A stretch of 64,000 bases of DNA. Origin: Hymenobacter yonginensis. GTDB lineage: Bacteria; Bacteroidota; Bacteroidia; Cytophagales; Hymenobacteraceae. This document shows positions 21,467 to 58,757 of this stretch, piece after piece. The notes under the pieces were generated by a model that was given only the letters and a program-made list of their open reading frames with translations, was not told the origin of the DNA and made no database searches. The stretch lies in contig NZ_CP115396.1 of the NCBI RefSeq assembly GCF_027625995.1, forward strand, positions 4,092,501 to 4,156,500, given 5' to 3'. Numbering within the stretch: the first letter of the stretch is position 1; every line of letters starts with the position of its first letter. Position numbers and translations under genes: made by a program.

Positions 21467-22978
21467 ATGTCCGATATTCTGACGAATTGGAGTAAACTAC
21501 CCCGCTGGTTCTGGCCACTACTCATCGGGTTGAATTTCCTGTTGCACGCGCCCTTCTTCAGCCAGCCTCCGGTAGGCCTGCATACCTGGAGGCAGAGCAA
21601 TACCATGGCGGTTATCCGCAATTTCTACGAGGAGGATATGAACATCATGCGGCCGCGTGTAGACCGCCGCAACGAGTCGGACGGCGTAACCGGGATGCAG
21701 TTTCCTTCCTACGAATGGACAGTAGCGGCGGTATGCAAGGCTGTTGGCTTTCACGAGGGCGTGGCCCGCGTAGTGAACTGGCTGATTTTTGCGGGCGGCG
21801 TAATTTTTTGCTACCACCTTTTTCGGCGCATCACTCAGTCGGTGTGGATGGCGGCCGTGGCGGCGTGGTGCCTGTCCTGGAGTCCGGAGTTGTTTTACCA
21901 CTGTATTAGCGCCTTGCCCGATGTGTTGGCCTTAAGTGCATCGTTGGGTGGCTTGTGGCTGTTTTTGCGGTGGTGGGATACCCGGCACAGTCTGTCTTTC
22001 TGGGGTAGTTTGCTGCTGACCACGCTAGCCGGCGCTACGAAGCTGCAGTTTCTGCTTATCGGGTTTCCCATAGCCGGCTTGGTTGTGCAGGCACTATTGA
22101 GCCGGCAGTTCGACTGGCGCCGCAGCTTGCTACCCTTGTTCTTTTTCGCGGTAGTGTCCGTCGGCTTACCATTGGCCTGGTACGCCTATTCCCTGCGCTT
22201 GATTGAAACCTCAGGGCTGGCTGATTTCGGCCTGGAAGTCCGGCCGGCCGACGACTTGCGCACAGGATTAGGTATCCTGTTGTTTAATATTAAATCGGAC
22301 TGGCCGGAAATGCTGCTAGGCTACGGGTCGGCGGTGATGGTGCTGGTAGGTGCAGGGCAGATGCGTTTGGCTGGAGTACGCCGCAGCCCGTGGATGTGGC
22401 CGGCGCTGCTGTGGGTAGGCGGAGTCGCAGTGTACTACGTATTTGAGCTTCGTCAAATGAAGGACCATGGGTATTATATGCTACCGCTGCTACCCCTGTT
22501 TGTGTGGGCCGCCGCCAAGGGCAGCGAGGTACTGCGCCGCAATGTTCGGTGGCACTGGCTGCTGGCGCTCATCCTGTTTTCGCAGCCTGTATGGGCTGGT
22601 GTACGGGTGATGAAATACTGGTTGCGCGGGCCGCGCGACGTCCCGTCGGAAATGTACTATCCGCAGAGCCGCGCCCTATTGGAAAACGCGGTTCCCAATG
22701 ATGCCTTATGTTTGGTCGGGCCCGACGAATCCGGGTGCAAACAGTTTTACTTCGTGCATAAAAAAGGCTTTGGCCTGGAAAGCAGCGAGCGACTAAGCTG
22801 GCCCACCACTACGGGCGAGCCATACGTAGCCGATTGTATTGCCCGTGGCGCTCAGTATCTGTATTTGTCTGATAGCACGTTGCTGACCAATCCCTATCTG
22901 GCGCCTTACGTTGGGCCACGGGTGGTGCGGGTAGGAGCAGTGCAGGTATTCAAACTACAAATGCCAGCCGGGCGCTAA
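21467..22978 (+). CDS. GT39/ArnT-like glycosyltransferase, polytopic membrane protein
   Basis: A 503-residue protein with about ten hydrophobic helices. After the first helix, the periplasmic loop HTWRQSNTMAVIRNFYEE contains the acidic/WRQ segment seen in dolichol/undecaprenyl-phosphate sugar transferases of family 39, and RPRVDRRNESDGVTG follows. The C-terminal 120 residues form a soluble domain. Such enzymes transfer a sugar from a polyprenyl carrier to lipid A, proteins or glycans at the outer face of the inner membrane. GC is visibly lower than in neighbours, with more TTG and TTA Leu codons, which suggests transfer. Acceptor unknown. Confidence 0.72.
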   Translation: MSDILTNWSKLPRWFWPLLIGLNFLLHAPFFSQPPVGLHTWRQSNTMAVIRNFYEEDMNIMRPRVDRRNESDGVTGMQFPSYEWTVAAVCKAVGFHEGVARVVNWLIFAGGVIFCYHLFRRITQSVWMAAVAAWCLSWSPELFYHCISALPDVLALSASLGGLWLFLRWWDTRHSLSFWGSLLLTTLAGATKLQFLLIGFPIAGLVVQALLSRQFDWRRSLLPLFFFAVVSVGLPLAWYAYSLRLIETSGLADFGLEVRPADDLRTGLGILLFNIKSDWPEMLLGYGSAVMVLVGAGQMRLAGVRRSPWMWPALLWVGGVAVYYVFELRQMKDHGYYMLPLLPLFVWAAAKGSEVLRRNVRWHWLLALILFSQPVWAGVRVMKYWLRGPRDVPSEMYYPQSRALLENAVPNDALCLVGPDESGCKQFYFVHKKGFGLESSERLSWPTTTGEPYVADCIARGAQYLYLSDSTLLTNPYLAPYVGPRVVRVGAVQVFKLQMPAGR

Positions 22979-37652: not shown

Positions 37653-39206
37653 ATGCGCCAATATTTACGTGTCTTTCTGCTGCTTCTGCCCGGGGCCGCC
37701 GCCGCTCAAACCTCTACCCCGCTTGTCCCGGCCAGGCCTCCCCTCACCAGCGTAGTGGTGTACCTGAACGGGACGTCGCTGGAACATAAGGGGCAGGTGC
37801 AGCTGCCGGCTGGCCTGAGCCGGCTGGTATTCGATAACCTGTCGGCCAAAATCAAATCCGAGTCGTTGGAGCTGCAGCTGGGCCCGGCGGCCGAGCTGGT
37901 TTCATTGGATGCCGCCGATGAGCTGCCGGCCTCGCCAGCCAACCAGCCTGCCCTCGACAGCCTGCGCCGCACCCGCGACGAAATAGAGCAGGTGGAGGCC
38001 GAGCTGAAAGGGCTGGAAGAAGAGAAGGTGTTTTTGCAGGCCAACCGCACGCTGCCCGCCGGCACCCAGGCCAACTGGAGCGCGGAAGTGCAGAAAGGCG
38101 CCACCCTGCTGCGCACCCGCACGGCCGCCATCCTGCGCGAAACCCAGCGGCTGCAGCTGCGCCAGACAGAGCTAAAGAAACAGGCAACGCTGCTGGAACC
38201 CCGAACGGCCAAAGACCCTGCCGACCGGGTAGTGGCGCTGGTGCGCACCAAGCAGGCCGGGCCCGTGCCGCTCACGGTGCGCTATTACGTGAGTAGCCGC
38301 ATGCCGTGGCAGCCCAAGCTGGATATCCGGGCCGATGAAGCGGGGCGGGAGCTGCGCTTCGATCCGCATGGGATGCTGCGTAATCAGTCGGGGCTGGCGT
38401 GGCAGCAGGTGCGCCTCACCATCATGAACTACGCCCTGGCCGACGATGTGTCGCGCCCGCAGCTGGAGCCCTGGGCGCTGGACTTTGCTGGCGGCGACCA
38501 TATCGGCGAGGGCCGCATTGATGAGTTCGTGGTGAAAGGCACGGCCAAAGGCCAGCCCGCCAACGTGGCGCAAAGCACCCGCTACGAGGTGCCCGAGCCC
38601 ATTACGCTGGCCGTAGGGGGCCGACGCGACGTCTCGTTGCCGCCCCTGCGGCTGGCGGCCCGCCCCGAATACCTGGCCCTGCCCAAACTCTCCGACAAAG
38701 TATACCTGACGGCCAAAGCCACAGGCTGGGAAGGCCTGCACCTGCCTGACGATGCGGCCGTGTACCACAAAGGCGGCTACGTGGGCCAAGTTGACCTGAA
38801 CGAGCGGGCCTACAACGATTCCTTGGAAGTAACGCTGGGCTACGATGAGCAGGTGGTAGTGAGCCGCACCAAGCTCAAAGACTTCAGTGGCAAGGCAGGC
38901 CTGAGTGGTAAGCGCCGCGTGCAGCTGGCCTACGAGCTGAACGTGCGCAACCGCCACACCGAACCCATCCGCATCCGGATACAGGATCAGATTCCGGTTG
39001 CCAGCGAAAAGGAAATTGAAGTGAAAGCGCTGGAAATCAGCGGAGCCCAGCTAGACGAGCGCACCGGCCGGCTCACGTGGGTGCTGACGCTGGCTCCCGG
39101 CACCAGCCAGCGCCTGGGCTTCAGCTTCCAGGTCGACTACCCGCAGGACGAGAAAGTGGAAATCATCCAGCACCGTGCTACCATCAAGTCGCCGAAGTTC
39201 CGCTAG
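37653..39206 (+). CDS. Mucoidy inhibitor MuiA family protein (DUF4140/DUF4139)
   Basis: A 517-residue exported protein with a signal peptide (MRQYLRVFLLLLPGAAAAQ). The N-terminal DUF4140 domain (about 30-120, VVVYLNGTSLEHKGQVQLPAG) is followed by a coiled coil (about 105-190) and a beta-rich DUF4139 domain (about 200-517, VRYYVSSRMPWQPKLDIRAD). The name comes from MuiA of Klebsiella-type studies; the molecular role is unknown. The protein probably resides in the periplasm. It is convergent with the MscS gene, 15 bases away. Confidence 0.87.
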   Translation: MRQYLRVFLLLLPGAAAAQTSTPLVPARPPLTSVVVYLNGTSLEHKGQVQLPAGLSRLVFDNLSAKIKSESLELQLGPAAELVSLDAADELPASPANQPALDSLRRTRDEIEQVEAELKGLEEEKVFLQANRTLPAGTQANWSAEVQKGATLLRTRTAAILRETQRLQLRQTELKKQATLLEPRTAKDPADRVVALVRTKQAGPVPLTVRYYVSSRMPWQPKLDIRADEAGRELRFDPHGMLRNQSGLAWQQVRLTIMNYALADDVSRPQLEPWALDFAGGDHIGEGRIDEFVVKGTAKGQPANVAQSTRYEVPEPITLAVGGRRDVSLPPLRLAARPEYLALPKLSDKVYLTAKATGWEGLHLPDDAAVYHKGGYVGQVDLNERAYNDSLEVTLGYDEQVVVSRTKLKDFSGKAGLSGKRRVQLAYELNVRNRHTEPIRIRIQDQIPVASEKEIEVKALEISGAQLDERTGRLTWVLTLAPGTSQRLGFSFQVDYPQDEKVEIIQHRATIKSPKFR

Positions 39207-48208: not shown

Positions 48209-48390
48209 AGCGGAAGGGAAAGGTGAGGGAAAGTAGCAGCAGGCAAGGCAATTAGGCAGTGGCCCGGCCGCCGCCGGGGAAAGCTACCGAAAAATCAGGC
48301 CAGAGTCATCTGCCGGGGTTGTGAAGCAGCAATACGCAGCCTAGCCGCATTATTCTGTATCTTTTGCCCCTCTTACCTCGCTCCACTGCT

Positions 48391-50151
48391 TTGTCTAATA
48401 CACTACCTCCCTCCCGTTTTGGCGGCCTGTTCCGCCGCAAAAGCCTCACTGATATCCTGCACAACCCGCCTGCCGACGCCGAAGGCCACGGCGGGGGCGG
48501 GGGCCTGGCGCGCCACCTCACCGTCCGCGACCTGACGGCGCTGGGCATTGCGGCCGTTATCGGGGCCGGTATTTTCAGCACCATCGGTAATGCCTCGCAC
48601 GACGGCGGCCCGGCCGTGTCGCTGCTGTTTGTGTTCACCGCCATTGCCTGCGCGTTTTCGGCGCTGTGCTACGCGCAGTTCGCCGCCACCATCCCGGTGT
48701 CGGGCTCGGCCTACACCTACGCCTACGCCTCGTTCGGCGAGCTGGTGGCCTGGATTATCGGTTGGGCGCTGATTATGGAATATGCCGTCGGCAACATTGT
48801 GGTGGCTATTTCGTGGTCGGACTACTTCACCGGCCTGCTCTCGGGCGTAGGCTGGGATATGCCCGTGTGGCTCACGATGGGCATGCAAAGTGCCCACAAG
48901 CATTACAGCGAAGTGCTGGCCCTGATGCAGGCCGGCCAGCCCCTCTCGGCCGCCACAGCCACCCAGCTGGAAGGCTACAACGCCTGGAACTCGGCCCCCA
49001 CGCTCTTCGGCGACCTGAAGCTGGTGATTGACCTGCCGGCCGGCCTGATCACGCTGCTCATCACGGCCGTGGTGTACATCGGCATCAAAGAATCCAAGAA
49101 CGCCTCCAACCTGCTGGTGCTGCTCAAGCTGCTGGTGGTGGCCACGGTTATTGCCGTGGGCGTGTTCTACGTGAATCCCGACAACTGGAGCCCCTTCGCG
49201 CCCAACGGCGTGGGCGGCGTGCTCAAGGGCGTGTCGGCCGTGTTCTTCGCTTACATCGGCTTCGATGCCATTTCGACGACGGCCGAGGAGTGCAAAAACC
49301 CCCAGCGCGACCTGCCCCGGGCCATGATTTACGCCCTCATCATCTGCACCGTGCTCTACGTGGTGATTACGCTGGTGCTCACTGGCATGGTGAGCTACAC
49401 CGAGCTGGGCGTGGGCGACCCATTGGCGTTTGTGTTCCAGAAAGTAGGCCTCAACTGGCTGGCGGGCGTGGTGGCCGTATCGGCCATCTTCGCCATGGCC
49501 TCGGTGCTGCTGGTGTTCCAGATCGGGCAGCCCCGCATCTGGATGACCATGAGCCGCGACGGGCTGCTGCCGCCGGTGTTTGCCCGCGTGCACCCGCGTT
49601 TCCACACGCCGTCGTTCAGCACCATCGTCACGGGCTTTTTCGTGGGCGTGCCGGCGCTGCTGCTCAACATGGACCTCGTGATTGACCTGACCAGCATCGG
49701 GACGCTGTTTGCCTTTGCGCTGGTGTGCGGCGGCATTCTCGTCATCGACCCGCACGGCCAGAGCGACGCCCGCTTCAAAGTGCCCTACATCAACGGCCAG
49801 TTTCTGGTGCCGATCATCATGCTGATCGGGCTGGGTTTGCTGTTCGCCTACAACCAGGCTGGCCTCGCGGCCTTCGGCAGCGCCGTGCGCGGCGACGGTG
49901 GCTACGAGGAGTTTCGCCACTACATCCCGATGCTGGTATTCATCGTGTTCTGCATCGGGCTGGCGTGGCTGTCGTTCCGCAAGAAGCTGAGCTTGCTGCC
50001 CACCCTGGGCCTGCTCACCAACCTCTACCTGATGACCCAGCTCGGCATCAACAACTGGCTGCTGTTCTTCGGCTGGCTGATTATCGGGCTGTTTCTGTAC
50101 TTCAACTACGGCTACAAGCACAGCAAGCTGGGGCTGAAAAAAGCCGCGTAG
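48391..50151 (+). CDS. Amino-acid permease (APC superfamily, cationic type)
   Basis: A 586-residue transporter with about 12-13 transmembrane helices. The N-terminal FRRKSLTDILH, the helix-1 motif LGIAAVIGAGIFSTIG and the FFAYIGFDAISTTAEECKNP motif in the middle are those of the cationic-amino-acid/CAT group. Substrate is likely an amino acid taken up by proton coupling. TTG at 48391 is preferred over TTG at 48364, because the earlier codon overlaps a TATCTTTT -7-type box. It is upstream of the Hhe-like gene on the same strand, with a terminator between. Confidence 0.87.
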   Translation: MSNTLPPSRFGGLFRRKSLTDILHNPPADAEGHGGGGGLARHLTVRDLTALGIAAVIGAGIFSTIGNASHDGGPAVSLLFVFTAIACAFSALCYAQFAATIPVSGSAYTYAYASFGELVAWIIGWALIMEYAVGNIVVAISWSDYFTGLLSGVGWDMPVWLTMGMQSAHKHYSEVLALMQAGQPLSAATATQLEGYNAWNSAPTLFGDLKLVIDLPAGLITLLITAVVYIGIKESKNASNLLVLLKLLVVATVIAVGVFYVNPDNWSPFAPNGVGGVLKGVSAVFFAYIGFDAISTTAEECKNPQRDLPRAMIYALIICTVLYVVITLVLTGMVSYTELGVGDPLAFVFQKVGLNWLAGVVAVSAIFAMASVLLVFQIGQPRIWMTMSRDGLLPPVFARVHPRFHTPSFSTIVTGFFVGVPALLLNMDLVIDLTSIGTLFAFALVCGGILVIDPHGQSDARFKVPYINGQFLVPIIMLIGLGLLFAYNQAGLAAFGSAVRGDGGYEEFRHYIPMLVFIVFCIGLAWLSFRKKLSLLPTLGLLTNLYLMTQLGINNWLLFFGWLIIGLFLYFNYGYKHSKLGLKKAA

Positions 50152-50273: not shown

Positions 50274-53200
50274 ATGCCTGCTGATTCCCTCCTTGCCGCC
50301 CGCCTGGAAGCTGCCCGCCAGGAGCTGCTGGATTTGGGGCTGCGCAACCCGCTGCTCAACTTCCGGCCCTCGAAGGTGCGCGGGGTGGCAGTGGTGGGTG
50401 AAGACGCGGCGGCGGTGTACGAGCTGCTGGTGCGACGGCTGCGGGTGCTGCAGTTTGCGCCCCTGCCCGAAGCCCAGGCCGCGCCCCGCCTCGGCTGGAA
50501 AGGCGACCCCGCCCGCGCCGCCCGCCGGGCCGAAGCCCTGGGGTTGCCGCTCCCGGAGCCGGTTCCGGCCGCGCCCCCGCTGCCGCCGGTGGTAGACCCA
50601 CTCGACAGCCGCCTGCAAACCGCCGAAACCGCCGACCAGCTGGAAAGCCGCCTGCTGAACACTTACTACACGGCCCGCACCAGCCTCGAAGAAACCGGCG
50701 CCAACATCCTGTACTTGGCGCTGGGCTGCCTCACCTGGTACGAAACCCCCACCAGCCCCGAGCCGCGGCAGGCGCCGCTGCTGCTGCTGCCCGTGGTGCT
50801 GGAGCGCGGCACTGTGGCCGAGCGGTTTCGGCTGCTGTATTCCGGCGCCGAGCCCGAAGGTAACCTCAGCCTGCAGGCCCGCCTGAAAGCCGATTTCGGC
50901 GTGCACCTGCCGCTGCCCGACCTCGACGAGCAGCCCTGGCCCGATTACGTGGCCGCCGTGCAGGCCGCCGTGGCGGGCCTGCCGCGCTGGGCGGTGGCCC
51001 CCGACAGCATCACGCTGGGTTTCTTCTCATTCAGCAAGCTGATGCTCTACCGCGACCTGGACCCGGCTGCCTGGCCCGCCGAAAGCCCGCTGCTCCAACA
51101 CGCCGCCCTGCAGGCGCTGCTCGGCCCCGAAACCGGCTTTCAGGACCAGCCGCCCACCTTCAGTGAAACCGATTTTCTTGACGACGCTCGCCCCACTGCC
51201 GAGCTGCACCAAGTGCTGGACGCCGACAGCTCACAGCTGCTGGCTTTGCTGGCCGTGCATGAAGGCCGCAACCTGGTCATTCAGGGTCCGCCCGGCACCG
51301 GCAAGTCGCAGACCATTGCCAACCTGCTGGCCGAGGCTATCGGAGCGGGCAAGAAAGTGCTGTTCGTGGCCGAGAAGATGGCAGCGCTGGAAGTTGTGAA
51401 GCGCCGCCTCGACGCGCTGGGGCTGGGCGCCGCCTGCCTGGAACTGCACAGCAACAAAGCCAATAAGAAAAGCCTCCACGACGAATTGCGCGCTACCCTG
51501 GCCCTGGGCCGTCCGGCCGCGTCCACCGTGCTGGATGAGCAGATTGCGCAGTTGCCGCCGTTGCGCGAGCAACTGAACCGCTACGCACTGGCCGTGAATG
51601 CGCCCCTGGGCCGCAGCCGCCGCACCGCTCAGCAGGTAGCCGGGGCGTTGCTGGCCCTGCGCGAGGAAGTGGGCACGCAGCTGCTGCCGCGCCCGCCCTT
51701 CGCTGACCTCGCCACCTGGACTGACGCCGACGCCACCCGCGCCGATGTGCTGGCCGGTCGGCTCCAAGCCACCTTGCAGAAAATCGGACCGCCCCCGCAG
51801 CTGCTGTACTGGGGCTCTGGCCTCACCATGCTGCTGCCCGCCGACCAGGAAGAGCTGGTGGCGCGCCTGACCGCTGCCCGCCGGGCCGTAGAGGAATTGG
51901 CGCATACCAGCACCGTGCTGGCTGCGCTGCTGGGCTTGCCCGCGCCGCCCGATGCCGCTGCTGTGGCGGCGTTGCGGCCCGTGGCAGAGCAGGCGGAGCG
52001 GGAAGCGAAAGCCGCCCACAAGTTGGCAGCTGTGGCCGCTGTAGAGGCTTTACAGACTGCCGCCTCCGGGCTGGCCTGCCTGCTGCAGGCACCGAAACCC
52101 ACCGGCCGGGCCACCACCGAAATCTTGGTAAACCTGGCCCGGCAGCGGCACGGTGAAGCGCTGGTAGCGCATTCGGGCGAGGCCGAAGCGGCCCTTGGCG
52201 CGGTGCAGACGGCATCCGCGGAAATGGCCCGGCTGCTGGGTGTACCCACTCCGCCCGACCACGCTACGGCCGCCGCGCTGCTGCCTCTGGCCGAGCATGC
52301 CGCGTTGGCTCCGCCTTTGCCCGGTGTGGCCGTTACCGACGCCTTCTGGCAGCAGCCTCACAGCCCGCTGCCTGCCGCCCAGCAGGCCGCCACTACCCTC
52401 AACGAGTTGCGCCAGCGCCATGCGGCCACATTGCTGCCCGAAGCCTGGGACCAGGATCTGGCCGCCGAGCGGGCCGTGCTGCTGACCACCGGCAGCAAGT
52501 GGTGGCGCTTTTTGAGCGGCGACTACCGTCGGGCCCGCCGCCGCCTGCAGCAGTTATGGCGGCAGCCCTTGCCTGCTTCGGCCGCCGAAGTCATGACCGT
52601 TATCGATGATATCCACGAGGCTGCCCAACACAAGCGGACCCTGCAGGAAGTCAGCCCGCTGGCAGGCAGGCTGTTTAGCACGGGCTGGTTGGCCGAGGCC
52701 TCCGACTGGCCTGCTCTCATGCGCGCCGCCGCCTACCTCACCCACACGCACCAACTGCTGACCCGGCAGCAGCTGCCTGCTGCTATCCTGCCTTATCTGG
52801 CTGCCAACCCGGAGGCCGCCTCACTGAGTGAGCCGCTGGCAGCTCTCAAAACCACTTTGCCCCGGCACCAGCAGGCGCTGCAACAAGCCGTAGCCGCGTG
52901 CCAGCCATCAGCCGATCGGCCGCAAAGCCTCACGAATCAACTGCCCGAAGCTTCATTTGCCGTGCAGGCCGCTGCCTTGGCTGCCTGGGCAAGCGCGACG
53001 CCCCGCGCCGATGCTATTGCCGCACAGGTAGCGGCCTGTTCCGCTGCTTTGCAGCAGGTGAAGCAGACGGAACAGGCTATCTGGCAGGCCGTGCCCGGTG
53101 CTTTCTTGTTCGGATTGGCTCCTGATTGGACACAGCAACCCTTCAACTCCCAAAAGGAGTTGTTGCGTGCCTGGGTAGCTGCCACGCCATTGCCTGCCGA

Positions 53201-55727
53201 ACTGGCCGCTGCCGCGCAGGCTGTGGAAACTGCCCTGTCTGATCAGCAGCGGACTGTTATGGCGGTGGTGGCGGCATTGGCGCTGGACGAGGCACGCCGC
53301 TTCGGCCAGGCTGGCCCGCTGGTAGCGCAGCCACTGCTGGCCCAGTCCGAATTGCTAGCTGCCTGGGCTGCCGACGTGCCGGCTTTGCAGATGGCGCTGG
53401 AGTGGAACAACGTGGCCGGCGTGGTACGCACCGAGGGCCGGCCCGAACTGCTGCCGCTGGCCGAAACCTGGTCCGAAGCCCCGCGCTACTTGGTGGCGGC
53501 GGTGCGGCAAACCTGGCTGGAATACCTGCAGCGGCTGGCTTACACGCAGTTTCCGGCGCTGCCGCAGTTCGAGCGGGCCGGGCACGAGGACGTGGCCGCG
53601 CAGTTCCGCGCGGCCGACCGCGCCAGTCTGTACCACAACCGCACCCGCGCCATGACGCGGCACTTCGACAACCTGCCCAACCCGCTACTGCCCACTGCCG
53701 GCGGCCAGATGAGCATCCTTAAAAACGAGTTTGCCAAAAAGACCCGCCACCTGCCCATCCGCCAGCTGATGCAGCGGGCCGGGCGCGTGGTGCAGGCCAT
53801 CAAGCCGGTATTCATGATGTCGCCGCTGTCGGTGGCCAGCTTCCTGCCGCCCGGTGCCGTGGAGTTTGATCTGGTGGTATTCGATGAAGCCTCGCAGGTG
53901 AAGCCCGTGGATGCGCTGGGCGCTATTGCGCGGGGCAAGCGGCTGGTGGTAGTCGGCGACTCCAAGCAGCTGCCGCCCACCTCGTTCTTCGACTCGCTGA
54001 CCGGCACTGGCGAAGCTGCCGATGAGGAAAACGTGACGGCCGACATCCAAAGTATTCTGGAGTTGTGCAAGGCCCGCCAGATGCCCGAGCGGATGCTACG
54101 CTGGCACTACCGCAGTCTGCACCAATCACTGATTGCGGCTTCCAACCACCTGTTTTACGAGGATAAACTGGTGATTTTCCCCAGCCCCGGCGGCAAGGGC
54201 CAGCTCGGGCTGCTCTACCATCATCTGCCTGAAACGCATTACGAACGGGGTACCACCCGCACCAACCCGCTGGAGGCGCAGGCTGTGGCCGCCGCTGTCC
54301 TTCACCACGCCCGCACTACGCCCAAACTCACGCTGGGCGTGGTGGCGTTCAGCACGGTGCAGCGGCAGGCCATCCAGGATGCGCTGGAAGTGCTGCGCCG
54401 CCAGCACCCCGAAACTGAGGTTTTCTTTGCCGCACACCGCCACGAGCCGTTCTTCATCAAGAATCTGGAGAACGTGCAGGGCGACGAGCGTGACGTGATT
54501 CTGATCAGCATCGGCTACGGGCGCACTAAAGACGGTTACTTGAGCATGAGCTTCGGGCCGCTGAACGGCGAGGGTGGCGAGCGGCGCCTCAACGTGCTCA
54601 TCACCAGGGCTAAGCAGCGCTGCGAAGTCTTTGCCAACCTCACGGCCGACGACCTTGATTTGAGCCGGACCCGCGCCCGGGGCGTAGCGGCGCTCAAAAC
54701 CTTTCTCAACTTCGCCCAGCACGGCCGCCTCAACCAGAACGAGGAAACCGGCCGCGAAATGGAGTCGCCGTTTGAGGAATCGGTGTACCGCGCCCTCTCG
54801 GCCCGCGGCTACCAGTTGCGCCCTCAGATCGGTAGCCAGGGCTTCTACATCGATCTGGCCGTAGTCGACCCCGACCAGCCGGGCCGCTACGTGCTGGGTA
54901 TTGAGTGTGACGGAGCCATGTACCACTCGGCGCGCTCGGCCCGCGACCGGGACCGGCTGCGCCAGCAGGTGCTGGAGGCCGTGGGCTGGCGCCTGCACCG
55001 CATCTGGAGCACCGACTGGTTCCGGGACCCCGGCCGCGAAACCGAGCGGGCCGTGCAGGCTATTGAAGAAGCCCGCCGCCTGGCTGCCCTTGATGAGCCC
55101 GACGAGCCGGACGCAGAGCCATTGCCCGAGCCCGCCGAGCTGGAACGGGAAGAGCCCGTGGCGCCCGACGTCAACCCGGCCGTTGTGCCCTACCAAGTAG
55201 CCTTGCTGCCCGATACCATCCGGCAGCAGGAGCTGCACCAATATAGCCTGGGCCAGGTGGTGAACTGGCTGAACGTGGTGGTAGGCGTGGAAAGCCCCAT
55301 CCATATCGAGGAAGCCACGCGGCGTCTAGCCAACGCCAGCGGAGCCAGCCAGGTAGGCGCCCGCCTGCGCAAAGTGGGCCGGGATGCGGCCCTGCTGGCT
55401 CAGAACCTCCACTACCTGCGCCGGGAAGGCGACTTCCTTTGGGCCCCGGCTATGCAGCAACCTACTCTGCGCGACCGAAGCCAGCTGCCGGCCATCTCGC
55501 GTAAACTTCTTTATGTGGCCCCCGAAGAGCTGGCCCTGGCTTTGCGCACGGTGGTCGAGCAAAGCTTCGCGCTGCCTCGGGAGGCAGTGTTTCTGCCAGC
55601 CGTGCGGCTACTCGGCTTCGCCCGCCTCAGCGAGGAGATGCGCCAGCAGCTGGAGCCGGTGCTGGCCGGCCTACTGGAGCGTGGCGACTTGGTAGAAATC
55701 AATGGGATATTGAAGCCTATCAGCTAA
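50274..55727 (+). CDS. DUF4011-helicase-Vsr-DUF3320 protein (Hhe-like antiphage candidate)
   Basis: An 1817-residue protein. DUF4011 begins at residue 12 (ARQELLDLGLRNPLLNF). A superfamily 1 helicase follows: Walker A GPPGTGKS at 338-345, Walker B VVFDEASQ at about 1202-1208, GDSKQLPP at 1228, and RRLNVLITRAKQR at 1437-1449. Between them, residues about 500-1100 are Ala/Gln-rich helices. A Vsr/MTES_1575-type PD-(D/E)xK nuclease follows, with E1501, D1527 (FYIDLAVV) and IECDGAMYH at about 1543. DUF3320 closes the protein (about 1650-1710). This domain order matches single-gene Hhe defence proteins (Gao et al. 2020). All motor and nuclease motifs look intact. Defence activity is inferred from domain order, not shown here. 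Confidence 0.88.
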   Translation: MPADSLLAARLEAARQELLDLGLRNPLLNFRPSKVRGVAVVGEDAAAVYELLVRRLRVLQFAPLPEAQAAPRLGWKGDPARAARRAEALGLPLPEPVPAAPPLPPVVDPLDSRLQTAETADQLESRLLNTYYTARTSLEETGANILYLALGCLTWYETPTSPEPRQAPLLLLPVVLERGTVAERFRLLYSGAEPEGNLSLQARLKADFGVHLPLPDLDEQPWPDYVAAVQAAVAGLPRWAVAPDSITLGFFSFSKLMLYRDLDPAAWPAESPLLQHAALQALLGPETGFQDQPPTFSETDFLDDARPTAELHQVLDADSSQLLALLAVHEGRNLVIQGPPGTGKSQTIANLLAEAIGAGKKVLFVAEKMAALEVVKRRLDALGLGAACLELHSNKANKKSLHDELRATLALGRPAASTVLDEQIAQLPPLREQLNRYALAVNAPLGRSRRTAQQVAGALLALREEVGTQLLPRPPFADLATWTDADATRADVLAGRLQATLQKIGPPPQLLYWGSGLTMLLPADQEELVARLTAARRAVEELAHTSTVLAALLGLPAPPDAAAVAALRPVAEQAEREAKAAHKLAAVAAVEALQTAASGLACLLQAPKPTGRATTEILVNLARQRHGEALVAHSGEAEAALGAVQTASAEMARLLGVPTPPDHATAAALLPLAEHAALAPPLPGVAVTDAFWQQPHSPLPAAQQAATTLNELRQRHAATLLPEAWDQDLAAERAVLLTTGSKWWRFLSGDYRRARRRLQQLWRQPLPASAAEVMTVIDDIHEAAQHKRTLQEVSPLAGRLFSTGWLAEASDWPALMRAAAYLTHTHQLLTRQQLPAAILPYLAANPEAASLSEPLAALKTTLPRHQQALQQAVAACQPSADRPQSLTNQLPEASFAVQAAALAAWASATPRADAIAAQVAACSAALQQVKQTEQAIWQAVPGAFLFGLAPDWTQQPFNSQKELLRAWVAATPLPAELAAAAQAVETALSDQQRTVMAVVAALALDEARRFGQAGPLVAQPLLAQSELLAAWAADVPALQMALEWNNVAGVVRTEGRPELLPLAETWSEAPRYLVAAVRQTWLEYLQRLAYTQFPALPQFERAGHEDVAAQFRAADRASLYHNRTRAMTRHFDNLPNPLLPTAGGQMSILKNEFAKKTRHLPIRQLMQRAGRVVQAIKPVFMMSPLSVASFLPPGAVEFDLVVFDEASQVKPVDALGAIARGKRLVVVGDSKQLPPTSFFDSLTGTGEAADEENVTADIQSILELCKARQMPERMLRWHYRSLHQSLIAASNHLFYEDKLVIFPSPGGKGQLGLLYHHLPETHYERGTTRTNPLEAQAVAAAVLHHARTTPKLTLGVVAFSTVQRQAIQDALEVLRRQHPETEVFFAAHRHEPFFIKNLENVQGDERDVILISIGYGRTKDGYLSMSFGPLNGEGGERRLNVLITRAKQRCEVFANLTADDLDLSRTRARGVAALKTFLNFAQHGRLNQNEETGREMESPFEESVYRALSARGYQLRPQIGSQGFYIDLAVVDPDQPGRYVLGIECDGAMYHSARSARDRDRLRQQVLEAVGWRLHRIWSTDWFRDPGRETERAVQAIEEARRLAALDEPDEPDAEPLPEPAELEREEPVAPDVNPAVVPYQVALLPDTIRQQELHQYSLGQVVNWLNVVVGVESPIHIEEATRRLANASGASQVGARLRKVGRDAALLAQNLHYLRREGDFLWAPAMQQPTLRDRSQLPAISRKLLYVAPEELALALRTVVEQSFALPREAVFLPAVRLLGFARLSEEMRQQLEPVLAGLLERGDLVEINGILKPIS

Positions 55728-55785
55728 GCAGAGCGGCTCTGCATCCTCTGCGCTAACCGCTGCGCCCTCTGCGGGCTAAAACCGT

Positions 55786-56372
55786 ATGCTTCCACCTCCC
55801 GAAACCATCCTGCTCACGCTGCGTCTGGCGGGCTCCGTGCCGGCGCGGGCCGGCCGTGAGCTGCACGCCCAGCGCGTTGCCGCCCAGGAAACGGCGCGTG
55901 GTGCCGCCACCGAAACCGAAGCCCAGGCGGCCCACCGCCGGGCCGAGAAGGTGTTTTTTGCGGGGTTTGATGCGCTGCTGGATACCCGCACCGTGGGGCC
56001 CGACTATCTGGCCGGGAGAAGGTGGCGGAGGCCGTGGCCGGCGAGCTGCTGATGCTGGAGGAGCAGGGGCTGCGGGTGCCGTGCTTTGTGCTGCTGCCCA
56101 ACCACCTGCACGCCGTGCTGCAGCTGCCGGCCGGCGCGGGCCTCTCGCTCTACAAAGCCGTGGAGCTTTTGTACCAGCGCACCGCCGCCCAGGCCCGCCG
56201 CCTGCTGCGCGGCCAGCTCCCGCCCGAAGCCGACTTCTGGCAAACAGGCTTCCACGAACTGCCCATACTGGATGTCGCCGAGCTGAGCCGCGTGCAAGCG
56301 TATCTGCTGGCTCACCCGCAGCGCCTGCGCCTGCCCGAACGGTTTCACAGCTGGCCCTATCTGCCAGAGTAG
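55786..56372 (+). pseudogene. REP-associated tyrosine transposase (RAYT), frameshifted
   Basis: Two overlapping frames make one RAYT. The first (55786 to about 56015) reads TILLTLRLAGSVPARAG and ends FFAGFDALLDTRTVGPDYLA. The second (from about 56013) reads EKVAEAVAGELLMLEEQG and then LLPNHLHAVLQLP with the HUH pair (His codons 56103 and 56109), ELLYQRTAAQA with the likely catalytic Tyr (56172) and FWQTGFHELPILD. A change of frame is needed at about 56013-56019. The protein ends at 56372, nine bases before the REP pair it probably mobilised. It lies directly downstream of the Hhe-like gene. Confidence 0.82.
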
Positions 56373-56380
56373 CCCCATCT

Positions 56381-56463
56381 GTGACACGGACTTCAGTCCG
56401 TAGCCCACCGGCACCGGCTACTTTGTGCAACGTGTTCGGGCTACGGACTGAAGTCCGTGCCAC
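56381..56463. repeat. Paired REP element (GGCACGGACTTCAGTCCGTAG), copy 2
   Basis: Arms 56381-56406 and 56438-56463 are complements with one mismatch (GACACGGACTTC against the right arm); each contains CGGACT-TC-AGTCCG. It shares the unit of 47383-47492 and lies directly after the RAYT pseudogene. Confidence 0.9.
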
Positions 56464-56519
56464 AGGGGGCAAGGCCGAAGTGCGGGCGGCTGCGTAGGTA
56501 GCGGAAAGTATTCCTGCTG

Positions 56520-57488
56520 ATGCGCGTATTTCTTCTGCTGCTGTGCCTTACCGCCCGCCTCGCCCAGGCCCAGCGCCCGGACAGCGCCCACACCAGCCCC
56601 GACCGGCTGGTGTACTACACTTTCGCCAACGACGCCTTTTTCCGCTCCGACTACTACTTCACCCAGGGCCAGACGCTCATGCTAGTGCTGCCGGGGCTTA
56701 GCCGCTCGCCCATAAACCGCCTGCTGGGCCCCGTGCCGGCGGGCAGCACCCGCTACCACGGCATCCGGCTGCACTACGACGGCTTCACGCCGCTGCGCAT
56801 CCAGGACCCGTTCATCCGGGTCGGCGACCGGCCGTATGCTTCGTATTGGTACGCCGATTTCCTGCGCATCGCCAACCAGCCAGCACGCAGGTTTCGCCTG
56901 ACGACGGCGCTCAATCTGGGTTTTATGGGGCCGGCGGCCGGCGCCAAGGGCTTCCAGACCAAGCTGCACGAGTGGCTGGGTGCCCCCACGCCCCGCGGCT
57001 GGGACTACCAGATCCACAACGATCTGGTGCTGGGCTACGAGGCGCACGCCGAAAAGCAGCTGCTGGCCGTCGGGCGCGGGGCCGAGCTGATTGGGGCGGC
57101 GGATGCTTCCCTGGGCACGCTTTACACCTACGCCGGGGCCGGCGCCCGCCTGCGGGTGGGACTGCTCAACCCGTATTTCGATAACCTGGGCGTGAGCGGC
57201 CCGGCCACCCGCGCCGGCCAGCGCCGGGTGCAGCTCTACGCCGAAGGCCAACTGGAAGGTCGCCTCATCGGCTACGACGCCACGCTGCAGGGCGGCCTGC
57301 TCCGCTCCGACAACCCCTACACGCTGCCCGCCAGCGCCATCCGCCGCACGGTGGCGCGCCGCACCGCCACCCTCGGGCTCGGCTACGCCGGCGTGCGCTT
57401 AGAAGCCTCCGCTGTCCACATTTCCCCGGAGTTCGATGGTGCCCGCTCGCACAAGTGGGTGCAGTTTGGCGTGCGGGTAGGGTTTTGA
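56520..57488 (+). CDS. Lipid A deacylase LpxR family outer-membrane protein
   Basis: A 322-residue barrel with signal peptide (MRVFLLLLCLTARLAQA). The family active-site segment near the N-terminus is YYTFANDAFFRSDYYFTQG, with the Asn-Asp pair and Thr seen in Salmonella LpxR. GWDYQIHNDLVLGYEAH supplies a His and acidic residues in the second conserved region. LpxR removes the 3'-acyloxyacyl chain of lipid A. Function in Bacteroidota is untested. Barrel strands with alternating aromatic residues run to the final VQFGVRVGF, which ends in Phe as outer-membrane barrels do. Confidence 0.8.
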   Translation: MRVFLLLLCLTARLAQAQRPDSAHTSPDRLVYYTFANDAFFRSDYYFTQGQTLMLVLPGLSRSPINRLLGPVPAGSTRYHGIRLHYDGFTPLRIQDPFIRVGDRPYASYWYADFLRIANQPARRFRLTTALNLGFMGPAAGAKGFQTKLHEWLGAPTPRGWDYQIHNDLVLGYEAHAEKQLLAVGRGAELIGAADASLGTLYTYAGAGARLRVGLLNPYFDNLGVSGPATRAGQRRVQLYAEGQLEGRLIGYDATLQGGLLRSDNPYTLPASAIRRTVARRTATLGLGYAGVRLEASAVHISPEFDGARSHKWVQFGVRVGF

Positions 57489-57509
57489 GGTGCTGGAATA
57501 GAAGGGGGA

Positions 57510-57608
57510 GAGCGTCATCCCGATCCTGCGAGGAATCTCGCTAGTGTAGTAAAAATAGCATCACAACGTCAGCACGCGAGATTCCTCGCAGGCTCGGAAT
57601 GACGTTCT
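57510..57608. repeat. Long inverted repeat (copy 7, partly degenerate)
   Basis: Left arm AGCGTCATCCCGATCCTGCG then AGGAATCTCG; right arm GCGAGATTCCTCGCAGGC then TCGGAATGACGTTC. The inner part is CAACGTCAGCACGCGAG, seen in copies 2, 3 and 5. Mismatches in the left arm show decay. It is followed by TCATCACC octamers (57611-57650). Confidence 0.7.
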
Positions 57609-57610
57609 TC

Positions 57611-57650
57611 ATCACCTCATCACCTCATCACCTCATCACCTTCATCACCC
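57611..57650. repeat. TCATCACC / CTCATCACC tandem octamers
   Basis: Four or five units of ATCACCTC at the 3' end of the EamA gene, attached to the inverted repeat. The same unit occurs before truA and coaE. Confidence 0.7.
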
Positions 57651-57659
57651 AAAGCCACT

Positions 57660-58619
57660 TCACTTTGCCCGGTGGATGATGAAGACGCCGGCTAGGATGA
57701 TGACCATGCCCAGCAGGTGCCAGAGGTTGAAGGCTTCGCCGTCGAGCACGCCCCAGGTGAGGGCCACGATGGGAATGAGGTAGGTGTTGGAGGCCGCGAA
57801 TAGCGTGGTGCTTTGCTGAATCAGCTTGTTGAAGAGCACCATGGCCACGGCCGTGCTCATGGTGGCCAGCAGCGCAATGTAGCCGAGGGCCGTCCAGGCG
57901 CCCGGCACGGTGGCTAGCTTGTGCGTGAAATCGGAGACGCCGAATAGGTACAGCAGCCCCAGCGGCCCGATGCTGAGCAGCGTGAGGCTGGTGACGGCCA
58001 CCGGCGACGGGCCGTGCAGGTGCTGCTTTATCACGTTCACGCTGATGCCGTAGCCGATGGTGGCGGCCACGATGTAGAGCCCGTACCAGGCGTTGGAGTC
58101 GCCGGAGGGCGTGGCCGCGCCGCCGCTGCCGCCCAGCAGCATCAGCACCACTGTGCCCACGAGGCCCAGTGCAATGCCCAGCACCCGCAAACTGGTGAGC
58201 TTCTGCCCAAACAGCACCGCGCCCACCACCAGCGTAAACACGGCCGTCAGGCCATTGAGCACCCCGGCCAGGCCCGAGGCCAGCTTGGTTTCGGCGTAGG
58301 CGAAAAGAAAGGCCGGGAAAAACGTGCCCACCACCCCGCTCAGCAGCAGCCACTTGTAGCGCTCGGCATCGACGCGGCGCACGTTGCGGAGCGCAAACGG
58401 CAGCAGCAGCAGCGCCGCAATGCTCACCCGCGCCGCCCCCAGTTCCATGGCCGAAAACACCACCAGTCCCTTCTTCATCAAGATAAACGAGGTGCCCCAG
58501 ATGGTGGCCAGCACCAAAAGCAGCCCCCAGGCCGAAGCCGTAATTCGCTGCGGCGGTGGCGGCGCTACGGGCGGCAGGGTAGGAGCGGTGGCAACGGCCG
58601 GAGCAGGAGGGGTGGGCAT
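57660..58619 (-). CDS. EamA family (DMT) transporter
   Basis: A 319-residue inner-membrane protein with ten predicted transmembrane helices in two EamA repeats (about 30-165 and 175-315). WGTSFILMKKGLVVFSA near the N-terminus is the EamA signature. Members export amino acids, nucleosides or metabolites; the substrate is unknown. Residues 1-25 are a Pro/Ala-rich tail before the first helix. The ATG at 58619 is preferred over 58667, which would extend into a repeat-adjacent segment. Convergent with lpxR. Confidence 0.85.
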   Translation of the reverse strand: MPTPPAPAVATAPTLPPVAPPPPQRITASAWGLLLVLATIWGTSFILMKKGLVVFSAMELGAARVSIAALLLLPFALRNVRRVDAERYKWLLLSGVVGTFFPAFLFAYAETKLASGLAGVLNGLTAVFTLVVGAVLFGQKLTSLRVLGIALGLVGTVVLMLLGGSGGAATPSGDSNAWYGLYIVAATIGYGISVNVIKQHLHGPSPVAVTSLTLLSIGPLGLLYLFGVSDFTHKLATVPGAWTALGYIALLATMSTAVAMVLFNKLIQQSTTLFAASNTYLIPIVALTWGVLDGEAFNLWHLLGMVIILAGVFIIHRAK

Positions 58620-58657
58620 GGGCGGGAAACTTGATCCGGCAGAACCGGAATAAAGAA

Positions 58658-58757
58658 AGAACGTCATGCTGAGCTTGCCGAAGCATCTCTACCGCTGGCT
58701 AACTTTCTTGATTAGCACTGCGGTAGAGATGCTTCGGCAAGCTCAGCATGACGTTCT
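58658..58757. repeat. Long inverted repeat (GTCATGCTGAG subtype, copy 8)
   Basis: AGAACGTCATGCTGAGCTTG at the left end and its exact complement at the right end, with CTACCGC and GCGGTAG inside. The arms match over about 38 bases. It lies between the minus-strand EamA and dusB genes. Confidence 0.92.

Follow-up and report, generated by a model that had tools for sequence, protein, structure and literature searches.

Can a large gene that keeps one fixed place among ordinary chromosomal genes serve bacterial immunity? The question is raised by a stretch of 64,000 nucleotides from Hymenobacter yonginensis (assembly GCF_027625995.1, contig NZ_CP115396.1, positions 4,092,501 to 4,156,500), hereafter the window, in which one open reading frame (ORF) encodes a 1817-residue protein combining a DUF4011 domain, a superfamily 1 (SF1) helicase, an MTES_1575 nuclease and a DUF3320 domain. 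We propose that this protein is a resident, single-protein, DNA-degrading defense enzyme acting against phages or other invading DNA, a reading to which we give a probability of roughly 0.7 on the basis of sequence comparisons and structure models. An antiphage function is what we infer, and we regard the indirect support for a defense role as good. A defense gene is the best explanation because the gene keeps a fixed address, is intact in nearly all copies and was not found in 56 of 101 Hymenobacter genomes, because module-wise import has made it locally much more divergent from its closest kin than the adjacent genes are, and because an enzyme of like build can take its place.

The ORF has no internal stops, and its ATG is the earliest in-frame ATG, GTG or TTG codon. 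The first-pass annotation, made from the letters alone, had read four modules in the order DUF4011, helicase, nuclease, DUF3320, and had proposed profile searches for DUF4011, AAA_11/12, MTES_1575 and DUF3320; these found all the modules in that order, with five domain matches above the Pfam gathering scores. The gene is laid out as follows.

50274-55727, + strand: whole gene for the DUF4011-SF1 helicase-MTES_1575 nuclease-DUF3320 protein, 1817 residues (ORF, Pfam, PADLOC, NCBIfam)
50322-50885, + strand: DUF4011 domain, residues 17-204 (Pfam, 3e-38)
51171-51503, + strand: first half of RecA1, residues 300-410, with Walker A GPPGTGKSQ at 51285-51311 (Pfam, alignment)
51504-53603, + strand: insert in RecA1, predicted to be almost all-helical, residues 411-1110 (AlphaFold2 model of the shorter homolog L059)
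53862-54638, + strand: second half of RecA1 plus RecA2, residues 1197-1455, with Walker B DEASQ, GDSKQLPP and RRLNVLITRAKQR (Pfam, alignment; UPF1/IGHMBP2/Dna2-like fold)
54771-55064, + strand: MTES_1575/Vsr-like PD-(D/E)xK nuclease, residues 1500-1597 (Pfam, 1.6e-38)
55212-55442, + strand: predicted winged-helix-like domain 1, residues ~1647-1723, including Pfam DUF3320 (1653-1700, 3.9e-9) (AlphaFold2 model m952b43738b84)
55521-55718, + strand: predicted winged-helix-like domain 2, residues ~1750-1815, no Pfam match (AlphaFold2 model)

AAA_11 matches in two stretches, the better at residues 1197-1237, and AAA_12 at 1264-1455; together with the RecA1-RecA2 fold, the helicase motifs place the motor in SF1, with a UPF1-like character in Pfam, alignment and structure comparison. 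Sequence comparison with the PDB gave SMUBP-2/IGHMBP2 and Sen1 as top matches, and by sequence and structure together the motor is closest to IGHMBP2, Dna2, Sen1 and UPF1. The structure prediction that had been suggested for the protein returned the UPF1/IGHMBP2/Dna2-like motor and the helical insert, and gave no fold match spanning the nuclease: Foldseek and VIA-align matched the motor and barely covered the nuclease and winged-helix parts. The Pfam MTES_1575 model is covered in full (positions 1-96 of 96), and AlphaFold2 confidence over the nuclease is 58-91 per ten-residue block. Winged-helix-like domain 1 is modeled as three helices and a hairpin at a predicted local distance difference test score of 90-96; both winged-helix calls rest on predicted secondary structure, not on a fold match.

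How the gene is distributed was surveyed in 101 Hymenobacter genomes, drawn from a larger group. It is present in 45, with C-terminal parts 62-87% identical, and 40 of these copies lie beside the same permease and/or EamA-type genes. In 33 the gene stands between the two on one contig, and in seven it adjoins one flank gene, with a contig break or the other gene out of reach. Both flank genes are nearly universal in the survey.

48364-50151, + strand: amino acid permease, left flank of the slot (Pfam; match at E <= 1e-200 in 99/101 genomes)
57660-58667, - strand: right flank of the slot, a gene that we take to encode an EamA-type transporter (match at E <= 1e-80 in 101/101 genomes)

All copies but two have open frames of at least 1539 residues; G045 is cut by a contig end and G083 by contig ends, and in the G004 copy (1539 residues) the first ~69 codons lie in a different open frame. 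The genes flanking the window copy are syntenic with other Hymenobacter loci, at up to 97-99% protein identity to L028, and the wider neighborhood is also conserved in many of them. Because 40 of 45 copies share their address, the sequence comparison indicates a resident chromosomal gene, and the same count rules out that the window copy is a mobile defense-island gene.

A shared address is also what would be expected if the protein were a lineage-typical genome-maintenance enzyme, a Dna2-like helicase-nuclease of repair or replication with an antiviral effect that is incidental at most. The kinship of the motor with IGHMBP2, Dna2, Sen1 and UPF1 and the ordinary genes around the slot speak for this as well. 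So does Pseudomonas aeruginosa, where a large DUF4011 gene, perhaps of another subfamily, is reported to be core: it flanks the hotspot cDHS1 and was found in every isolate (PMC10250203). The 56 genomes in which the gene was not found argue the other way, as does the history of the gene at its site.

That history appears when the window is aligned with the nearest genome compared, G001. DNA matches were found for 35 of the 37 other window ORFs, 33 of them at 92.8-98.7% identity. Within the gene, identity is 96.9% for the first 877 bases and 75.9% (over 75% covered) for the remainder; past the stop codon it is back at 92-97%. When the window is divided into 119 bins of 500 bases, the five with the lowest identity all fall in the gene body. 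With a second comparison genome, G003, the pattern in the gene is reversed: the 5' part is 77.2% identical (78% covered) and the body 90.6%. The sequence changes from G001-like to G003-like at ~51200-51450, inside the conserved RecA1 half that carries Walker A; a second G001 switch lies at ~55780-55800, just past the stop codon. Quick trees agree. Residues 1-300 group the window with G001 (support 100; grouping with G003 rejected by the approximately unbiased (AU) test, p 8e-50), residues 1111-1600 group it with G003 (support 99; grouping with G001 rejected, AU p 0.004), and four flanking proteins group it with G001 (support 99; grouping with G003 not rejected, AU p 0.127). As the groups were chosen after the identity profile and the trees are quick ones, these p-values are descriptive.

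The same decoupling is seen across the genus. Over 454 locus pairs, which are not independent and in which two genomes are entered twice, identity of the DUF4011 part (residues 1-290) does not correlate with flanking-protein identity (Spearman 0.04); the coefficient is 0.24 for the insert, 0.42 for the first RecA1 part, 0.46 for the second RecA1 part with RecA2, 0.42 for the nuclease and 0.58 for the C-terminus. L170 and L173, for example, have flanks of 98.9% identity and DUF4011 and insert parts of 78% and 67%; L025 and L029 have flanks of 97.0% and DUF4011 parts of 59%. Comparing the window with G001 gives a synonymous divergence (dS) of 0.10 for DUF4011 and of 0.49-0.94 for the remaining segments, and the ratio of nonsynonymous to synonymous divergence (dN/dS) is 0.03-0.51 in all six pairs computed. 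Because dS jumps within the gene and dN/dS stays in this range, the sequences indicate that divergent alleles were imported while purifying selection kept the protein working. A fast rate alone is ruled out, since synonymous divergence shifts five- to tenfold within the gene. An assembly chimera is not favored either: G001 departs from its own kin, its residues 1111-1600 grouping with L052/L056, and the same pattern recurs in L170/L173, L033/L039 and L025/L029. Such local import of alleles into a gene that keeps its address under purifying selection fits an immune gene.

The slot can also hold something else. We fetched 49 of the 56 non-carrier slots and clustered their ORFs (left out were G026, G037, G044, G047, G060, G063 and G085); the gap between permease and EamA-type genes ranges from 180 bp to 19.9 kb. 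Six of these slots have, at the same position, a different gene of ~1520-1560 codons.

L103:208-4860, with L100, L109, L126, L141 and L146: alternative helicase-nuclease (slots of G008, G002, G016, G042, G080 and G090)

The L103 protein has AAA_11/12 and MTES_1575 matches, none to DUF4011 or DUF3320, and scores 219 bits on PDC-S37, the PADLOC family discussed below. Among the 101 genomes the alternative gene (65-100% identity, E <= 1e-60) occurs in those six only, always in the slot and never together with the DUF4011 gene; the chance probability is 0.026 for the exclusion alone. By its domains, this family may be an undescribed defense candidate. We found no evidence that the slot is a general defense hotspot, having read 13 representative proteins and scanned that of L103 as the sole non-carrier protein with PADLOC; most of the other representatives presumably are a peptidase, a TonB-type receptor, histidine kinases and similar proteins. 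Import of alleles and replacement at the same site would be unexpected of a repair enzyme, and we consider genome maintenance unlikely.

The remaining slot of the window, between the gene and the EamA-type flank, holds three further features.

55786-56369, + strand: REP (repetitive extragenic palindrome)-associated tyrosine transposase-like gene, in two reading frames in the window (tblastn of the G003 copy)
56379-56465, no strand assigned: 28-nt inverted repeat, a REP-like palindrome, after the transposase-like gene
56520-57488, + strand: LpxR outer-membrane protein gene (Pfam)

The G003 copy of the transposase-like gene scores 53.9 bits on NF047646, below the cut-off of 80. Further along, many similar copies (~76-94% identity) of the sequence at ~57502-57662 are scattered across the genomes of the genus, and this repeat is probably of REP type.

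Since such a transposase-like gene is present in 39 of 60 fetched slots, one may ask whether the defense is aimed mainly at plasmids, transposons or conjugative DNA and not at phages, targets with which a helicase-nuclease build is compatible. We think this improbable: the transposase-like gene is found in slots without the DUF4011 gene too, nothing in the sequence points specifically to such targets, and the related families ProA and Hhe are named as anti-phage. No paper listed by our literature search dealt with target choice by DUF4011-helicase-nuclease proteins.

Of the five copies that lie elsewhere (G023, G045, G050, G051, G077), two have clear defense-type neighbors: G023 has a type IIG restriction enzyme nearby, and G051 a protein resembling type I restriction enzymes together with a DpdF-like helicase. 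No neighbor of comparable clarity could be assigned to G045, G050 or G077. When the 37 neighbors of these five loci were scanned with PADLOC, pooled over loci, they matched PDC-M64A/B, mads_3 and a CARF-LolE model; six of the 37 were rescanned singly. In G051, a 1530-residue RecQ/DpdF-like helicase (L163:14133-18722) is encoded on the same strand upstream of the gene copy, with a 330-residue ORF in between. Outside Hymenobacter, 161 candidate neighbors were available at 33 loci, and 80 of them, from 31 loci, were scanned with PADLOC, with no control run; at 1e-25 they matched 90 families, some of which are unspecific models of kinases and helicases. In the window, PADLOC found no match for three other proteins. 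The fetched stretches of G001 gave no DNA match to ORF 21467-22978 or to ORF 37653-39206, and those of G003 none to the former; neither ORF had a PADLOC match at 1e-5.

Which parts of the protein are held constant was read from an alignment of 72 sequences (the window protein, 35 Hymenobacter homologs and 36 others), from which 9 of 79 relative loci had been excluded as cut or split. Six peptide patterns retrieved 70 of the 71 relatives, the remaining one, L001, coming from the Hymenobacter genome search; in the pattern search the relatives are spread patchily over many bacterial phyla and archaea, a distribution that again speaks against genome maintenance. Nuclease residues E1501, D1527 and E1544, which had been picked out from the sequence, are invariant, as are C1545 and D1546, Walker B D1204-E1205 and motif VI R1437, R1438 and R1445. 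Conservation of E1544-D1546 was partly favored by the search, because the pattern ECDGAMYH contains those residues. Walker A (338-346) shows one exception only, at T342, in agreement with the claim of intact Walker motifs. In the comparison of locus pairs, mean identity is 91.3% in the first part of RecA1, 85.6% in its second part with RecA2 and 81.2% in the nuclease, and falls to 65.9% in DUF4011, 65.3% in the insert and 66.3% in the C-terminal part. As the least conserved parts, these last three are the best candidates for recognition of an invader or escape from a phage inhibitor.

The insert had been singled out as an unusual Ala/Gln-rich helical segment and a possible sensor. It exists and is rich in both residues (23.0% A and 8.3% Q over residues 481-1110), but it is not unusual: in every one of the 71 aligned relatives an insert separates the Walker A half of RecA1 from the Walker B half, so it is no oddity of the window copy. 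Its length, counted between window residues 400 and 1120, is 720 in the window and 491-539 in 31 of 35 Hymenobacter homologs; 717-721 is found in the window, L001 and L022, and 837-838 in L023 and L049. The 36 relatives outside the genus range from 392 to 1353. Part of the extra length of the window copy is explained, on sequence grounds, by a duplication inside it.

51876-52436, + strand: diverged internal duplication within the insert, residues 535-631 and 637-721 (local alignment)

Its Smith-Waterman score is 103, against 72 for the best of 1000 shuffles, and the DNA carries a repeat of 76 nt, 71% identical, at a spacing of 306; BLAST of the insert against itself showed no off-diagonal match, and neither did its shuffles. 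The insert may act as a sensor, being one of the most allele-variable parts; DUF4011 and the C-terminal part qualify just as well.

To which family does the protein belong? The first-pass annotation had called it Hhe-like. Hhe reportedly stems from Gao et al. in 2020 and has the module order DUF4011-helicase-Vsr-DUF3320, the same four modules in the same order as Pfam finds in the window protein, and Hhe is a strong second match (795.2 bits in PADLOC). The curated NCBIfam model (NF042953) nevertheless gives 1012.7 bits against a cut-off of 2000, about half, with four further alleles at 978-1046, and PDC-S37 and ProA both score higher. This rules out Hhe as the family, and that the protein is Hhe proper is very improbable. 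PADLOC ranks PDC-S37, a computational defense candidate family, far above at 1981.6 bits; the match is strong over the whole model, in three stretches of which the best covers model positions 709-1545 of 1550. The 1588-residue allele of G001 matches the model from end to end (residues 7-1585 on positions 6-1545 of 1550), and the window copy differs by its longer insert. The name PDC-S37 was not found in our literature search.

The NCBIfam model ProA (NF058533) is passed by 2 bits, at 1502.3 against a curated cut-off of 1500; of four close alleles at 1499.1 to 1544.3 bits, three pass and that of the nearest genome fails. The window protein does not match the 1903 model positions as a whole, its best stretch being 960-1784 on 1069-1903. 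Its DUF4011 starts at residue 17, so that ~350 N-terminal model positions are seemingly absent, and two close alleles with a protein-spanning best stretch begin at ProA position 353 or 357. L099 and L067, which carry a ~400-residue extension before DUF4011, fit the whole model (2-1903 and 1-1903) at 2357 and 2161 bits. Because the close alleles start at 353/357 while these extended proteins fit throughout, the window protein appears from its matches to be a shorter form related to ProA, and the candidate family PDC-S37 is the best place to file it. A literature search combining ProA with phage terms gave no title about an antiphage ProA among the papers listed. Two relatives outside the genus differ in their surroundings or build: in a Sphingomonas relative (L051:9908-16048), a C-terminal Schlafen (SLFN) AlbA_2 domain is added after DUF3320, and in Agrobacterium vitis an ORF 16 bp downstream of the relative (L050:14002-16311) matches PDC-S06 at 913 bits.

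Several points weigh against a resident defense enzyme. PDC-S37 is only a predicted defense family, and the ProA score is marginal, with the nearest genome's allele below the cut-off. In the window slot the gene is surrounded by genes of ordinary metabolic or membrane function, and defense genes less typically keep a stable chromosomal address. Only the comparison with G001 makes the gene the most diverged stretch, because with G003 the lowest 500-base bins lie mostly outside it. Finally, allele exchange is also known in surface antigens and other diversifying genes and is no proof of phage defense.

If the protein is such an enzyme, it would be kept inactive in the healthy cell until DUF4011, the insert and/or the winged helices recognize a phage protein or a DNA structure specific to infection. 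After that, the motor would load on DNA ends or single strands and move, probably in the 5' to 3' direction taken by its structural relatives, feeding DNA to the nuclease, so that the invading DNA, or the cell's own if the enzyme is unrestrained, would be destroyed. Seeing or evading the opponent would fall to the swapped modules, and motor and nuclease would form the more constant engine. We further suggest, tentatively and at less than even odds, that the permease-EamA slot could be an immune-allele locus, in which homologous recombination, acting through the conserved RecA core, swaps the DUF4011, insert and winged-helix modules, the whole gene is sometimes replaced by another helicase-nuclease, and the modules set which invader is recognized or which phage inhibitor is escaped. 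In that case DUF4011 would be an exchangeable specificity domain.

New here are the carriage in 45 of 101 genomes, the 40 copies at one address and the mosaic allele. The alleles of the window, G001 and G003 differ module by module and form a natural series for finding the specificity module. Our findings suggest that a gene at a stable address outside islands can carry an immune-type signature in the form of local allele import, and discovery based on defense islands would miss such fixed-address genes.

Among known systems, the SF1 helicases UPF1, IGHMBP2, Dna2 and Senataxin resemble the motor but are eukaryotic and have other accessory domains; the nuclease of Dna2 is N-terminal. The target-recognition domains of hsdS are exchanged in the way that the immune-allele locus would require. 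Two further systems offer mechanistic parallels. Hna likewise confers phage resistance as one protein that joins a nuclease to an ATPase site; it is an autoinhibited exonuclease activated by a phage single-stranded DNA-binding protein (PMC13381803); the analogy is one of mechanism and implies no kinship. In Hachiman, a helicase reportedly senses damage and frees a nuclease (PMC12278908), which makes it an analog for how the window enzyme might be restrained, not a relative by any test made.
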